Under the pieces are notes generated by a model that did not search any database, had not been told where the DNA came from, and was given only the letters and a program-made list of their open reading frames with translations. From Anas platyrhynchos (lineage: Eukaryota; Chordata; Aves; Anseriformes; Anatidae): a stretch of DNA of 64,000 nt. Shown piece after piece: positions 57,400 through 64,000 of this stretch (positions are counted from its first letter, which is position 1; the number at the start of each line of letters is the position of its first letter). The stretch spans positions 6,597,501 through 6,661,500 of the forward strand of contig NC_092613.1 in the NCBI RefSeq assembly GCF_047663525.1. The letters run 5' to 3'. The translations under genes were made by a program, and so were the position numbers.

Positions 57400-58191
57400 G
57401 GGGACAGGCGACAACGGGAGGGGGGCACCGGGACACGGGAGGGGGGGGACCCCGCACCCCCGGCACCACCCGGGCCGGGCTGAAGGAACGGGACCCCCGG
57501 GGGGACCCTGCCCCGACGGCTCCGTGTCCCCTGCGTGTCCCCGCCGGGGTGTCCCCCCCCGGTCCCCCCCCCAGCACTCACCGCCGCCGCCCGGCCCCGC
57601 TCCGCTCCCGGCGCCTCCCCCGCGGCAGCGGCGCGGACTCGAAGCCAGCGCCGGGAGCGGGGAGCGGCGGGGAGGAGCCGCGCAGGGACGGCCCCCCCCC
57701 GGCCCCTCCGGTCCTCCCCCGGCCCCCCCTGGCCCGCAGCAGAACGGCCCCGAGCACTGGGGGGTGTGGGGGGCAGCACCACGGCGCCCCCAGAGACCCC
57801 ACCCCAGGGGTTCTCCCCCCCGGGACCCCCTCTCCACCCGGGACCCCTCTCCATGCGCCCCCCCCAACGGGTCCCCCCCTCACTCTCCATTCCCCGGACC
57901 CCCCCCGATGCCCCCATGCCCTCCCCCCCCCACGGGACCCATACCCCAAGGGTCTCCCACACTTATTCCCCCCCCCCCCATATGTCCCTCTCCAGAGCCC
58001 GCAGCCCCCGGACCCCCCAAACCTTCCCCCCCCCCCAAATCCTGCAACCTCAAAACCTTCCACGGAGCCCACTCCCCCCCCCATAAATCCCCCTCCCGTC
58101 TCCCGCCCCCCCCCGGAGCTCCCCCCCCCGGAGCTCCCCGCCCCTTTCCCCGCCCCTCCCCGTTCCCTCCCCCCCCCTGCCCGCAGTAGCC
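57400..58191. promoter_or_regulatory. CpG-rich region upstream of RNPEP, possible bidirectional promoter
   Basis: CpG-dense at 57420-57720, then an extremely C-rich plus strand (many C6-C10 runs) up to the RNPEP ATG. It lies between RNPEP and a minus-strand donor at 57582. No TATA box is seen. It is called a promoter from position and composition. Confidence 0.5.
57582..57900 (-). promoter_or_regulatory. NAV1: Putative first exon/promoter of the upstream NAV1 transcript
   Basis: A strong donor (GGCGGCG|GTGAGTG) at 57582 on the minus strand lies in CpG-dense DNA about 600 bp from the RNPEP start. It could be the untranslated first exon feeding exon A at 49848. Only the donor and base composition support it; the 5' end is arbitrary. 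Confidence 0.35.
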
Positions 58192-58605
58192 ATGGCGGCG
58201 GAGCCGGCTCGGGACACGGCCACGGCCACGGGGGGGGCAGCGGCCGCCCCCTTCTCGCTGCTGCACCTGCACCTGGAGCTGGGGGTCGCTTTCGGCTCGG
58301 GGGGGGGCGCGGGGCGGTTGCGGGGGGCTGCGCGCTTGGAGCTGCGCTGCGTGCGCCCTGGGGGCCGCGCCCTGGTGCTGGACTCGCACCCCACGCTGGA
58401 GGTGCGGGGGGCGACCCTGCTGCCCCCCCCGTGCCCCCCCGGGGCCGAGAGCGATGCCGATGCCGGGGGGGGGCAGGAGCTGCCCTTCGAGACCCTCCCG
58501 TTCGCCAGTTACGGCTCGGCGCTGCGCATCGCCCTGCCCCGCGAGCCGCGGCCCGGGGACCTGCTGGCGCTGCGCATCGACTACGAGGCGGGCGAGGGAC
58601 CCGGG
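58192..58605 (+). CDS. RNPEP: RNPEP exon 1
   Basis: Residues 1-138: an Ala/Gly-rich, poorly conserved start, then [16 protein letters not shown] and the N-terminal beta-domain to [10 protein letters not shown]. The donor is GGG|GTGAGA, phase 0. A pyrimidine tract ending CCCGCAG lies just before the ATG and could be an acceptor for an untranslated upstream exon. Confidence 0.92.
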
Positions 58606-61600
58606 GTGAGAGGGGGGCGAGGGGCTGGGGAAGGGCCACGGGGGGGTTGAGGGGCCGGGGAGGGTCCGCAGAAGGAGTTTTGGGGTTTAGGGTTGGGTCC
58701 CACGCTGTCCCGAAGGTGTCTGGCGTGGGGTGGATTGGGGAGCGAGGTGGGTGCCCATGGTGAGCGGACCCCGCCGCCCCCCTCACCGCCTCGCTGTTCC
58801 CCCCCCCCTGTGCTGCAGATGTCGTGGCTGGCCTCCTCCCAAACTGCCCAGAAGGAGAAGCCTTTCCTCTATACCTCTGGCTTCCCTGTGCTCAACAGGT
58901 CCTTCTTCCCCGGCTTCCACACCCCGGGCACGAAGAGCACCTACTCGGCACGGGTCCAGGTAAAGCCCCGCCGCTCACAGCGCTGTCTCTTGTCTCTCGC
59001 CAGGTGTGCTGGCTCACCCCCGAGCAGACCGCGGGGAAGCAGAAGCCCTTTATGTACACTCAAGGCCAGGCCGTCCTGAATAGATCCTTTTTCCCTGGCT
59101 TTGACACTCCAGCAGTTAAATGCACATACTCAGCCACGGTGCAGGTAAGCGGCTCCCCGGGAGGGGCGCGGGGCACAAACCCCAACGCCTTCCCGAAGCT
59201 CTCCCAGAGCAAAGCCCTCGCCGTGCTCCCACCTGGAGGTGCTCGAGGGGCCGGATGCCCCAGACATGTGGAAGCATTTGGGTGCTGCAGGAGTGCTGCC
59301 CACAGCCTGTGCAGCCATGGGTTTGAGACAATTTGGAGCATTACACCCCAAATTCCCACTTCAGGCCCCCAGCAGAGAAGGCAGTGACAAATATTTAGCT
59401 TCTACTTTGTTTTCCTCTACGAGTACACCCGGCCTGAGTCGCTCCTCTCCCCCTTCCCCAGCCACTGCTGCAGCCTCTGGTTCGTGCGTGGCAGCGGGTG
59501 CGTGCCGGGGGGTGTGCCGACAGCTTTTGCCTCCGAGCAGGAGGCTGCCAAAATGCTTCACACTTGACGCTGAGGTGCCAGGGAGCAGCTGGGATTAGCT
59601 GGGTGCTTGAACCTCTCAGGTCTCCTCGTGGGGATGCAGCTGCCTGAATAATTCCTCTGAATCCTTACCGTGGAGCACCCAGCTCGGTCCCCTAGCAGGC
59701 AGCGGGTGCCTTCCCCTTTTTGTTTAACCCCAAACCAAGTCGCTCACACCCAGCTTTGTCCCCTCTCCTGGGGGCGCGCAGCCAACAGCGGTGCTGCCGG
59801 GGGTGAAGGATGCTGCTGGGGGCTGTGACGCTGATGGCATACTGAGGCCGTGGCATCAGCTGAGGATGCAGGACTTTATTTTTCTCCCTCTTGCTCTAAA
59901 TTCTTCCCCGAAAGTTGGAGCAAAGCTCCCTCCTGAAGGGTGAGCACGGGGCTCGTGTGTTGGAAAACCCCGGTGCAGGGATCGGTGCTGCAGGAACCGT
60001 GCTCTCCCCAGCCCCACCGGCCTCACCTCCTGCCTGTCCTGGGAGCCACTGCAGAGCTCACTGGGGCCTGACGAACCGGGATAACGAGCTGTTGTGCAAG
60101 GATGGGGAGGAGAGCTGCTTTCTGCAGGGCACACGCTGCTTCCTGCCTCCCTGTCCTGCTCCCTGCTGCGCCCTGTGGCACCGGGGCTCACCGTGTGCCT
60201 CTCTTGCTGTGCTCAGCTGCTTTGTCCCCAATGCTGTGGTTGGGGCTTGGCTCTGGGGATGCATCGTGGAGTCCCCCGCTGGGCTGGCAGACACCCTGCT
60301 TCGTGCAGCACAGATCTGATGGGCGTTTTGTCCACGTTTCCAGGTCCCCGAGGGCTTCACGGCGGTGATGAGCGCCACGACCTGGGAGAAGCAGAAGGAC
60401 AACACTTTCGTCTTCAAGATGGACCATCCCATCCCCTCCTACCTGATCGCCCTGGCTGTCAGGGACATGGTGTCTGCTGAAGTTGGCCCAAGGTAAGTGC
60501 CTGCAGGAGCAACCTGCAGCACATAACCCCAAGCAAAGGTCCCACGTCTCTTCCCCAGGCTGCTCGTTGGAGCTCGCGGCTGCTCCAGCACCCGTGTAAA
60601 AGCCCTTTGGCATTCAGACTAGGAAAGAGATTGCAACAGTTGGACTCTCGTTAGCTTCATTTATCACCAGGCTTTTATGCTGTCGCAGAATAAACACGTG
60701 CGGGTGTTGCCTGATGAAGCAACGGGGTGAAAGTCCCCTCCTGGTTATCGCTGCCTCTTGTTGGTGCTGGCCAAGCACGCGCCAACAGGTCTCCACCTGC
60801 CCCATGATTGTCCTGCAGGGTCCCCCGGCGCTGCCTCCTCCTGCTGCAGACACAACGCACTGCTCGGGGCAGGGTGGGGGGATCTCTTTGGGGGCACTTG
60901 CTCGGCTCTGGAGGAGGCCCCGACTCAGAGGGGTCGCTCAGTGGGGCTGAATGTCCCCCCAAGTCCCTGCTCCTTGGCGTCTGGAGGGACCCCCTTCCCT
61001 TTTATCGCTCTGTTGGTCTCTGCAGGAGCCGTGTCTGGGCCGAGCCCTGCCTGATCGAGGCTGCTAAGAAGGAGTACGATGGGGTGATCGAGGAGTTCCT
61101 GGCCGTGGGCGAGAAGCTCTTTGGACCCTATGTTTGGGGCAGGTATGAGGGGCTCTGTTCCTTGGGGCTGGGGACGGAGCATCCCCCAGCCCTGGGCCGT
61201 GGCTGCAGGCAGAGTTGGCTCCGTACCAAGCCGCCGACCCTTCCCTGCCAGGTACGACGTCCTGTTCATGCCGCCCTCGTTCCCCTTCGGCGGGATGGAG
61301 AACCCCTGCATCACCTTCGTGACGCCCTGCCTGCTGGCCGGGGACCGCTCCCTGGTGGACGTCATCATCCACGAGATCTCCCACAGCTGGTTCGGGAACC
61401 TGGTCACCAACGCCACCTGGGGCGAGTTCTGGCTGAACGAGGGCTTCACCATGTACGCGCAGAGGCGCATTTCCACCGAGGTCTACGGTGCGTGGCCGTG
61501 CCCGGGGGGTCTGCGGGGTTTTGGGGTCCGTGCCATCTGCTGGCCCGGCAGCTGCTCCCCCAGCCAGCAGGGCTCACGCCGCTTGCCCCTGGTAGCAGCA

Positions 61601-63270
61601 CCCGTCACGCTCTCACCGCGTGCGGGTCGGGGTCTCCAAACGCCTCCGCTTGTCCCCGTCAGGTTCAGCGTACACCTGCCTGGAGGCCGCCACGGGCAGG
61701 GCCCTGCTGCGCCAGCACATGGACAACACCGGGGAGGACCATCCGCTCAACAAGCTCCGGGTGGTGATCGAGCCAGGTCCGTGGCAGCCCCCGCGGGCGG
61801 TGCTGGTGGTGCCCGAGGCTGTGCGGGGCTCTGCTCCATGCGGAAAGGGTGAATCCGCTCGTTTTGCAGAGCAGCAGATGGGTTGTGAGAGGTTTCCCTT
61901 CTCCCCTGCTAGGCGTCAACCCGGACGACACGTACAACGAGACCCCCTACGAGAAGGGGTTCTCCTTCGTCAGCTACCTGGCGCACCTCGTGGGGGACCA
62001 GGGCAAGTTTGACGCCTTCCTGCAGGTCGGTGGAGGGACGGCACGGGGAGCTCGGCCCAAAACTGGGGTTGGGAGACACGAAATGCTGCGGGGGGAGGAA
62101 GGGCTGAGCGCAGCAGCAGATGGGGAAGGGGTGTTCGGGGACATGCTGGAGGATCCAGGGGTAGGCAGCGAGCGTGTGTGGCAGCCCACCCCGGCCGTCC
62201 CCACAGGCCTACGTGGAGCGGTTCAAGTTCCAGAGCATCACCGCGGATGATGCCCTCAATTTCTTCCTGGAATACTTCCCCGAGCTGAAGAAGCAAGGCG
62301 TGGACTCGCGCCCAGGTCAGTGCGGGGCGGTGCGAGCTTCGTGTGCCACAACCACCTCGCCTCACCCATGGGGCTGCCGAGGTGCGAACCGAGCCTTGCC
62401 CAAGCGGGGCCCCCCCCAGCTTCCCCTCCCTGCCTCACCTCAGGCTTGGAGTTCGATCACTGGCTGAACACACCGGGCTGGCCGCCCTTCCTGCCCGACC
62501 TCTCCCCGGGGCAGCAGCTGATGAAGCCGGCGGACGAGCTGGCGGAGCTGTGGGCGGCCGAGAGCTTGAACGTGGAGGCGATCGAAGCCGTGGACATCAC
62601 GGGCTGGAAGACGTACCAGCTGGTCTACCTCCTGGACCAGCTCCTGCAGAAGTCGCCCCTACCCGAAGGTGAGGGCCTGGCGCCCGGGGTGGCATCACAC
62701 AGGGCCCAGGCTGGGGGCCGGGGATGTGAGGGGCTGCACCCGCACGGCCTCACCCAGCCCTGGGGTGCCGGGGAGCCCGGGGCCGGGAGGATTTGGGCGA
62801 GCAGAGGCGATCACTCTCTCTCACAGGCAACGTGGAGAGGCTGAGCGCCATGTACCCCAAGATCTCCAAGGCCCAGAACGCCGAGCTGCGGCTGCGCTGG
62901 TGCCAGATCATCCTCAAGAACAACCACGAGCCCGAGTACAGCAAGGTCAAGGACTTTCTCCACAGCCAGGTTTGTCCCGTCCCTCTGAGGGGACAAGGGT
63001 GACACCAGGGGGGACACACAGGACCCCCCCCCTCGGTCATCCCCAGCCCTCCCCGTGCTGCGGTGGAGGTGGCTGGGCCCCGACCGCGTCTCTCTCGGGC
63101 AGGGGAAGCAGAAGTACACCCTGCCCCTGTACCGCGCCATGTGGGCCGGCTCGGAGGCGGCCCGGGCCCTGGCCATGGAAACCTTCTCGGCCACGGCCGC
63201 CCAGCTCCACGTCAACGTCCAGAACTACGTCAAGAAGATCCTGGGCCTGGAGGGGGCAGAGAAGGAGTGA
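58192..63270 (+). CDS. RNPEP: RNPEP, aminopeptidase B (M1 zinc metallopeptidase): complete
   Basis: RNPEP removes N-terminal Arg/Lys from peptides and is used in hormone precursor trimming (family knowledge). Eleven exon positions give 1929 coding bases (642 aa; human about 650), using either exon 2 copy. Visible hallmarks are the exopeptidase motif GGMEN (287-291), the zinc site HEISH...E (H314, H318, E337; general base E315), and PYEKG with the proton-donor Tyr (Y403). The C-terminal helical domain as in LTA4H begins around exon 8. The start has GCCATGG context. No signal peptide is evident. The gene is head to head with NAV1. Every junction is GT-AG and in phase; exons are listed separately. 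Confidence 0.97.
58819..58959 (+). CDS. RNPEP: RNPEP exon 2a, alternative tandem copy
   Basis: A 47-codon phase-0 exon ([20 protein letters not shown] onward) with the acceptor GTGCTGCAG and the donor CAG|GTAAAG. It is homologous to exon 2b over its whole length, with 31 of 47 residues identical. It differs at positions normally fixed in M1 peptidases: TQGQA becomes TSGFP, FDTP becomes FHTP, and LTPEQT becomes LASSQT. Of the 31 shared residues, 22 use different synonymous codons, so the copy is old and its core is under selection rather than a fresh or decaying duplicate. It is probably mutually exclusive with 2b. Confidence 0.8.
59004..59144 (+). CDS. RNPEP: RNPEP exon 2b, canonical copy
   Basis: A 47-codon phase-0 exon ([20 protein letters not shown] onward) with the acceptor TCTCGCCAG and the donor CAG|GTAAGC. 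It matches the remembered mammalian RNPEP sequence, including [10 protein letters not shown], whose glutamines line the S1 pocket in M1 peptidases (residues 158 and 160 here). Confidence 0.96.
59145..60343 (+). other. RNPEP: RNPEP intron 2 (1.2 kb)
   Basis: The longest RNPEP intron, downstream of exon 2b. I see no third copy of exon 2 in it and no other feature. Confidence 0.8.
60344..60492 (+). CDS. RNPEP: RNPEP exon 3
   Basis: Encodes [17 protein letters not shown] to VSAEVGP. The acceptor is TTTCCAG and the donor AG|GTAAGT. The [10 protein letters not shown] block is typical of M1 peptidases. Confidence 0.96.
60493..61025 (+). other. RNPEP: RNPEP intron 3 (0.5 kb)
   Basis: Nothing recognised. 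The remaining RNPEP introns are 44-425 bp and equally plain. Confidence 0.8.
61026..61142 (+). CDS. RNPEP: RNPEP exon 4
   Basis: Encodes [17 protein letters not shown] to FGPYVWG. The acceptor is TCTGCAG and the donor AG|GTATGA. Confidence 0.96.
61252..61487 (+). CDS. RNPEP: RNPEP exon 5 (catalytic core)
   Basis: Contains GGMEN and the full zinc site [10 protein letters not shown]...WLNEGF. All three metal ligands and the catalytic Glu are intact. The donor is G|GTGCGT. Confidence 0.97.
61663..61776 (+). CDS. RNPEP: RNPEP exon 6
   Basis: Encodes [18 protein letters not shown] to VVIEP. The acceptor is CCGTCAG and the donor G|GTCCGT. Confidence 0.95.
61913..62025 (+). CDS. RNPEP: RNPEP exon 7 (catalytic Tyr)
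   Basis: Encodes [18 protein letters not shown] to FDAFLQ. The Tyr of PYEKG is the transition-state-stabilising residue of the family. The acceptor is CTGCTAG and the donor CAG|GTCGGT. Confidence 0.96.
62207..62315 (+). CDS. RNPEP: RNPEP exon 8
   Basis: Encodes [20 protein letters not shown] to VDSRP. The acceptor is CCCACAG and the donor G|GTCAGT. Confidence 0.95.
62444..62668 (+). CDS. RNPEP: RNPEP exon 9 (C-terminal helical domain)
   Basis: Encodes [19 protein letters not shown] to QKSPLPE. The conserved WLNTPGWPP marks the linker to the helical domain. The acceptor is CACCTCAG and the donor G|GTGAGG. Confidence 0.96.
62827..62969 (+). CDS. RNPEP: RNPEP exon 10
   Basis: Encodes [20 protein letters not shown] to FLHSQ in the helical domain. 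The acceptor is TCTCACAG and the donor CAG|GTTTGT. Confidence 0.95.
63103..63270 (+). CDS. RNPEP: RNPEP exon 11 (C-terminus)
   Basis: Encodes [18 protein letters not shown] to EGAEKE, then TGA at 63268. The acceptor is TCGGGCAG. Confidence 0.96.
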   Translation, partial: GKQKYTLPLYRAMWAGSEAARALAMETFSATAAQLHVNVQNYVKKILGLEGAEKE

Positions 63271-63345
63271 GCGGAGAAGGGGGTGCTCCTGCCCCTGCCC
63301 GGCTGGGGCAAGCCCTCCGTGAGGTCTCCCTGCGCATATTTGCTT

Positions 63346-63351
63346 ATTAAA
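63346..63351 (+). terminator. RNPEP: RNPEP poly(A) signal ATTAAA
   Basis: ATTAAA lies 76 bases after the stop, followed by a T-rich and GT-containing stretch (TTTTTTTTGTGC). The 3' UTR is therefore only about 100 bases. Confidence 0.75.
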
Positions 63352-64000
63352 TTTTATAATTTTTACCTTTTTTTTGTGCTTTATTTCCAGCAGTCCCTGT
63401 GCAGTTTGTGCTCCTCCTGGCCAGGAACCATCCCCAGGCCCCGGGGTTTACCTTGGAGGGCTGGGCCTGGCACGGAGGCCAGGGTCCTCTGCTGGGGGTC
63501 CGGGGGGCTCATTTTGGGGCTGGGGAGGGCAGGATCCGTCCCTGCTGTGCCACCTCTGCCCTGGGCAGAACAGGGCCCTGCCACAGGCTGGCAGCGCGAC
63601 AAACCCCACGGATTTGTGAGCAAAGGGGGAGCTTAGTGCGGGATCTGCCCTCCAGCCTCGGTGCAGGGATCAAGGATGGAGCCTGGCCCCATGAACCTGC
63701 AGTGCAGGAGCAGCAGCTGGGTCAAAACCATCCCCTAAGCGAGGCCGTGAGATACAGGGAGCGACTCTGACACGTTTCTGAGCAGCAGCAGAATGGTAAT
63801 GGACGTGGGGGCTCCAGCCCAGGCACAGCCTAATGGGCTTTTAGGCAGAACTTTCCATCAGGAGAATAACTGCGCTGGTGAGCAGCCAGGCGCTGACAGC
63901 AAACCCGAGCTGACACCACCATGGTGCCGCGTGGAACCAACCCTGAGCCTTTTGCTGGGGTAAATCCCACAGAGGATGGACAACGATGCAGGTAAAACAC
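63352..64000. other. Intergenic DNA downstream of RNPEP
   Basis: After the poly(A) signal I see no exon, repeat or further gene up to the window edge. Confidence 0.7.

Follow-up and report, generated by a model that had tools for sequence, protein, structure and literature searches.

A Conserved Tandem Pair of Second Exons in RNPEP and a Putative Alternative Form of Aminopeptidase B

The window (the whole stretch of 64,000 nucleotides of Anas platyrhynchos DNA that was analysed) contains RNPEP, the gene for aminopeptidase B, with two copies of its second exon side by side. Does a single gene encode two different enzymes here, or is one of the copies without an enzymatic role? The copies are designated exon 2a (upstream) and exon 2b (downstream), and the features are as follows.

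58192..63270, plus strand: RNPEP (aminopeptidase B), coding region from exon 1 through exon 11; based on the exon model, the match to mallard record P0019 and the domains in P0019
58192..58605, plus strand: exon 1, coding part, with the C-terminal letters GEGPG; exon model
58606..58818, plus strand: intron 1, 213 nt, with one YTNAY branch-point-like match
58819..58959, plus strand: exon 2a, the alternative copy, 47 residues; based on exon anatomy and on relatives in birds, squamates, turtle and teleosts
58960..59003, plus strand: intron between exons 2a and 2b, 44 nt, with one YTNAY match
59004..59144, plus strand: exon 2b, the canonical copy, 47 residues; the same sequence is in mallard P0019
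60344..60492, plus strand: exon 3, the acceptor exon common to 2a and 2b; exon model
between 60344 and 63270, plus strand: exons 3–11; exon model

Joined by the exon model, exons 1, 2b and 3–11 of the window encode 642 amino acids followed by a stop, and the coding region is complete. This 2b form is identical to P0019 at 637 of 642 residues. The differences are at residues 98, 225, 227, 408 and 470, two of them within one conserved stretch (RDM for GDI). Pfam recognizes Peptidase_M1, M1_N and Leuk-A4-hydro_C in P0019. Peptidase M1 and LTA4H C-terminal domains in both P0006 (a 2a form) and P0019, with the motifs HEXXH and GGMEN, assign the protein to the M1 aminopeptidases as aminopeptidase B. 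Elsewhere in the window, long open frames are numerous on either strand of positions 1–57000, which is expected from the G+C content; ten of the window's 110 long open frames, compared with Pfam, had no match.

Exons 2a and 2b are each 141 bp long, in phase 0 and bordered by GT-AG, as originally reported, and they are 44 nt apart. Either copy keeps the reading frame, and so do all combinations of the two. The acceptor and donor are ...tgtgctgcag and GTCCAG|gtaaag for 2a, and ...ctctcgccag and GTGCAG|gtaagc for 2b. The copies share 31 of 47 residues. At the base level 89 of 141 positions agree, and the 52 differences are distributed 14/8/30 over the three codon positions. On recounting, 22 of the 31 identical residues use a different codon, as originally reported, and the replacements of TQGQA by TSGFP, FDTP by FHTP and LTPEQT by LASSQT were also found as described. 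G or C occupies the third codon position in 40 of 47 codons in 2a and in 32 of 47 in 2b, despite the 44-nt spacing. A repeat scan of 58100–63400 (minimum 25) returned two families of low complexity; since it did not pick up the exon pair, it is uninformative on diverged copies of other RNPEP exons.

The exon 2 segment was the target of three protein searches. Of 30 candidates, 26 proteins were obtained with the 2a isoform of the window as query; a cyprinid 2a isoform yielded 22 of 26, and a chimeric 2a-like query 53 of 296, with many proteins found more than once. A 2a-type segment is present in 24 database records, which range from fish to birds. The bird records are from Lagopus (ptarmigan) and P0018, which groups with Lagopus. 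The reptile records are from skinks, geckos, Podarcis, Rhineura and Chelonia (sea turtle). Among teleosts, 2a is seen in cyprinids, a loach, characins, a gymnotiform, clupeids, an anchovy, a smelt, a whitefish, Brienomyrus, an eel and Aldrovandia. Lagopus is the one named bird with a 2a record besides the window, and Neoaves showed only 2b representatives, but absence from these lists is weak evidence, since clustering of the proteins at 90% identity can conceal 2a members behind a 2b representative. Across birds, reptiles and mammals, for which a comparison was originally proposed, 2a is present in birds, squamates and a turtle; the two mammal records found, both from Phyllostomus bats, have 2b. 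It is likely that 2a was lost in mammals. Both the age and the taxonomic spread of the pair far exceed what the original prediction implied.

For the phylogeny, 24 2a peptides (23 database records and the window), 20 2b peptides and 6 outgroup peptides were aligned over 47 columns. The second Podarcis record, P0009, was left out of the 2a set; P0019, P0023, P0025, P0027 and P0043 were left out of the 2b set, as were RNPEPL1 and LTA4H-like matches beyond the six outgroup rows from the tree. The 24 2a peptides form one clade apart from 2b and the outgroups, with support of 100/99 and in 200 of 200 bootstrap trees; none of 500 label shuffles scored as low. The inner forks of this 47-column tree are weak, and the grouping of the sea urchin sequence with 2a (97/78) is not taken as history. 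LTA4H, RNPEPL1 and sea urchin RNPEP belong to the M1 subfamily of RNPEP, and exon 2 aligns to Gln134–Asp148 of LTA4H. Their rows are 2b-like, with Q or H at exon positions 20 and 22 and D at position 34, and none of the six has the 2a-type F at 22 or H at 34. Because these rows lack the 2a residues, 2a is the changed copy. Derivation of 2a from RNPEPL1 or LTA4H was rejected on the same ground, and separate duplications in fish and amniotes were rejected because 2a is one clade with F and H in common. Since both ray-finned fish and amniotes have 2a, the duplication predates their separation. Ray-finned fish and tetrapods separated about 430 million years ago.

Conservation was compared on a subset of the 2a records, 6 from tetrapods and 10 from fish. 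The mean tetrapod–fish identity among these isoforms amounts to 0.678 in exon 2a, 0.721 in exons 3–11 and 0.333 in exon 1, and 32 of 82 windows along exons 3–11 are less conserved than 2a. Exon 2a is the less conserved of the pair: fish and tetrapods keep 32.2 of 47 residues in 2a versus 38.0 in 2b, and 13 positions are invariant in 2a versus 29 in 2b. Both copies are conserved as coding sequence. That the RNPEP pair is real and conserved is close to certain. An alternative translation start at the Met of 2a was also considered and dropped, since Val or Ile is at this position in 12 of the 24 2a rows.

What does exon 2a change in the enzyme? Residues were mapped by alignment to human LTA4H, calibrated on the zinc ligand His295. 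Exon positions 20, 22, 23 and 34 correspond to Gln134, Gln136, Ala137 and Asp148 of LTA4H. At position 20, 2a has S in 22 rows and T and C in one each (n = 24), versus Q in 20 of 20 2b rows. Position 22 is F in 24/24 versus Q in 20/20, and position 23 is P in 23/24 versus A in 20/20. Position 34 is H in all 24 2a rows, versus D in all 20 2b rows and all six outgroup rows. No residue at positions 20, 22 and 34 is common to 2a and to the 2b and outgroup rows. The Gln/Gln and Asp of the LTA4H sites are thus S/T/C, F and H in the 2a form, which is an isoform of the RNPEP gene and is not claimed here to work as ordinary aminopeptidase B. The changes had been placed at positions fixed in M1 peptidases, but the PEQT segment varies among relatives: RNPEPL1 rows read SELT, PELT or TELT.

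In LTA4H, the side chain of Gln136 can face either the zinc or the hydrophobic cavity, and a bound tripeptide has its N-terminal Arg directed to Gln136, as described in the available part of PMC9177663. The fixed 2a changes at the Gln134 and Gln136 equivalents therefore lend support to the originally claimed change of the substrate site. The S1 pocket of LTA4H is capped by Asp375 (PMC3984412, in the section available). In RNPEP, the segment corresponding to Asp375/Tyr383, the zinc motif and GGMEN are all encoded outside exon 2. Because the catalytic segments are on other exons, the exon choice is expected to alter one wall of the substrate site and to leave the metal chemistry unchanged. Against the Pfam M1 N-terminal model (cut-off 25.8 bits), the exon alone scores 15.7 bits for 2a and 33.0 for 2b, and the whole protein 27.3 for P0006 and 42.7 for P0019. 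Pro, as at position 23 of 2a, is the usual residue there in other M1 aminopeptidases. Glutamine-169 of human aminopeptidase B has reportedly been the subject of a study.

The preferred reading is that of an ancient mutually exclusive pair in which the 2a form is an active aminopeptidase B with altered substrate recognition; as a joint claim, this is given a probability of about 0.52. A single duplication of RNPEP exon 2 would have occurred before ray-finned fish and tetrapods separated, followed by protein-level selection on both lines. Exon 1 would be joined to either 2a or 2b and then to exon 3, and both products would keep the zinc peptidase encoded by the remaining exons. The 2b form would be ordinary aminopeptidase B. 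In the 2a form, the equivalents of Gln134, Gln136, Ala137 and Asp148 would be Ser, Phe, Pro and His. If activity is retained, these replacements at the substrate site suggest that the N-terminal residue is held differently and that other substrates are used. Once a conserved exclusive pair is granted, an active 2a form with altered specificity is more probable than not.

The best-surviving alternative has an exclusive pair with a catalytically dead 2a form, which would act as an off switch or as a binding-only or competing protein. The residue replaced by Phe in all 24 2a rows is the equivalent of Gln136, a tripeptide recognition residue in LTA4H crystals (PMC9177663, from the part available), and an Asp kept throughout the 2b and outgroup rows has become His. 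The weaker fit to the M1 N-terminal model and the lower conservation of 2a also suit a loss of activity. However, the catalytic segments come from exons common to both forms, and the residues of 2a are strongly conserved, with replacements at the site that are specific rather than scattered; a dead form would need less. The Pro at position 23, as in other M1 aminopeptidases, also argues for an enzyme. A dead 2a form is therefore considered a possibility to be kept in mind, yet a doubtful one.

In the preferred reading, only one copy enters each transcript. The 44-nt intron and intron 1 each contain a single YTNAY match. In the 44-nt intron the A of this match is 18 nt from the 5' splice site, with 26 nt to the intron end; in intron 1 the corresponding distances are 180 and 33 nt. 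In the records that read through it, the intron between 2a and 2b is 37 nt (P0018) or 48 nt (the turtles P0004 and P0042). Work on human mutually exclusive exons takes a donor-to-branch-point distance below about 50 nt as the criterion of steric exclusion (PMC5740500 and PMC7969005, in the parts available). The RNPEP intron is 44 nt in all, and its candidate branch point is well within this distance. With the candidate site so close to the 2a donor, the U1 and U2 particles could hardly fit together. The intron had been called too short for vertebrate splicing, which is too strong, as human cells splice introns of 43, 49 and 56 nt (PMC4463651, in the portion available); forced exclusivity is still likely. 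At +5 the 2b donor, GTAAGC, has a G and the 2a donor, GTAAAG, does not, so 2b is probably the default choice.

Annotated isoforms agree with the use of one copy at a time. Of 18 records named RNPEP isoform X2, 17 (from 16 species) carry 2a without 2b. The remaining one, from Accipiter, has 2b. Five X1 records and one X3 record likewise have 2b, and none of the X-labelled RNPEP records has both copies. The X names are in the style of the NCBI automatic pipeline, in which variants generally need transcript support. Five unlabelled gene models (P0003, P0004, P0005, P0029 and P0030) contain both copies. In those from Lerista, Labeo, Coregonus and Aldrovandia the exons are joined directly, while in P0004 (Chelonia) the 48-nt intron is translated. 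These five models are probably annotation errors caused by the tandem exons. With the X2 records and the single ancient clade of 2a, the prediction of a mutually exclusive pair has gained support, and mutually exclusive use is very probable.

It would follow from the opposite view that the copies are not strictly exclusive, with double inclusion giving a longer protein or with a loose choice of no functional consequence. The five both-copy models, the splicing of a 43-nt human intron and the fact that every exon combination is in frame are compatible with this. None of these models carries an X label, however, P0004 looks like an error as it translates the intron, and an insertion of 47 residues would hardly be tolerated in a folded domain. 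Non-exclusive use is thus regarded as improbable.

Codon differences within the window had been taken as a sign of long protein-level constraint on 2a. When all 52 changes were simulated as random, at least 31 identities were reached in 0 of 20,000 runs, and 18% were without a stop. When 26 changes were silent on a constrained 2b branch and 26 were free on 2a, at least 31 identities were reached in 36% of 5,000 runs; 35% were without a stop, and the mean was 45 base differences versus 52 observed. Synonymous differences are thus a weaker argument than they seem. The window data alone are compatible with drift on 2a and cannot prove the constraint; the cross-species data decide for selection. 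The 2a copy may be decaying in single lineages. The record of the box turtle P0042 (Terrapene) begins inside 2a with FSIKSTCSAKIQ, the 2a of the green turtle P0004 (Chelonia) has NRSLSPGF and YSVKIQ, and that of Brachyhypopomus (P0036) has one residue missing and reads NWSVFSGF. Although these odd records and the half-neutral simulation would suit a relic or neutral duplicate in birds, this explanation is rejected as very improbable, because from fish to birds the 2a frame is open (stop codons in related species had been named as evidence against the pair) and its residues are fixed, in one clade with conservation near that of constitutive exons.

The exclusive pair with an active 2a form can be extended, tentatively, to a broader joint claim. 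Many or most non-mammalian bony vertebrates might have two aminopeptidase B enzymes per gene, of which the 2a form, through the Phe at the Gln136 position and its companions, would handle a different class of N-terminal residues or a non-peptide substrate; the pair would be more than 400 million years old and lost in mammals. If so, work on the human and rodent enzymes never met the 2a form. RNPEP converts glucagon to miniglucagon (PMC2241622, in the part available), and peptide processing may differ between mammals and other vertebrates. The pair provides a natural experiment on the specificity of M1 aminopeptidases, in which 47 residues are exchanged on a constant scaffold and which evolution has maintained in fish, reptiles and birds.

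No description of the pair in RNPEP had been known originally. Among the literature matches listed on splicing of RNPEP or aminopeptidase B, where subscription papers are mostly outside the scope, no title or abstract describes it, but databases already carry automatic isoform X2 entries. RNPEP has no occurrence in the main texts, as available, of three surveys of duplicated or mutually exclusive human exons (PMC9741552, PMC5740500 and PMC9013439), whose tables are outside this count. The RNPEP pair suggests that surveys of duplicated exons built on human genes can overlook ancient pairs absent from mammals.

Alternative homologous exons that alter enzyme kinetics or substrate are known from KHK (exons 3A/3C), PKM (exons 9/10) and CYP4F3. 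Unlike the RNPEP pair, these are known in mammals, and none of them is in a metallopeptidase. One of the surveys lists 236 human events of mutually exclusive tandem duplicated exons (PMC9741552, in the text available). Like the RNPEP pair, they are adjacent homologous exons of equal phase, give two proteins that differ in one segment, and originated in or before early bony vertebrates. Key functional residues are usually kept in them and changes are mostly conservative, whereas RNPEP 2a has Gln to Phe and Asp to His at the substrate site. A likeness is also seen in exons 4a/4b of OGDH, an ancient vertebrate pair that alters an enzyme property and is separated by a short intron with branch points below the steric limit (PMC7969005, in the part available). 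The OGDH intron is 118–131 nt in birds and mammals versus 44 nt in RNPEP, both OGDH exons are kept in mammals, and their choice alters Ca2+ sensitivity rather than a substrate pocket.
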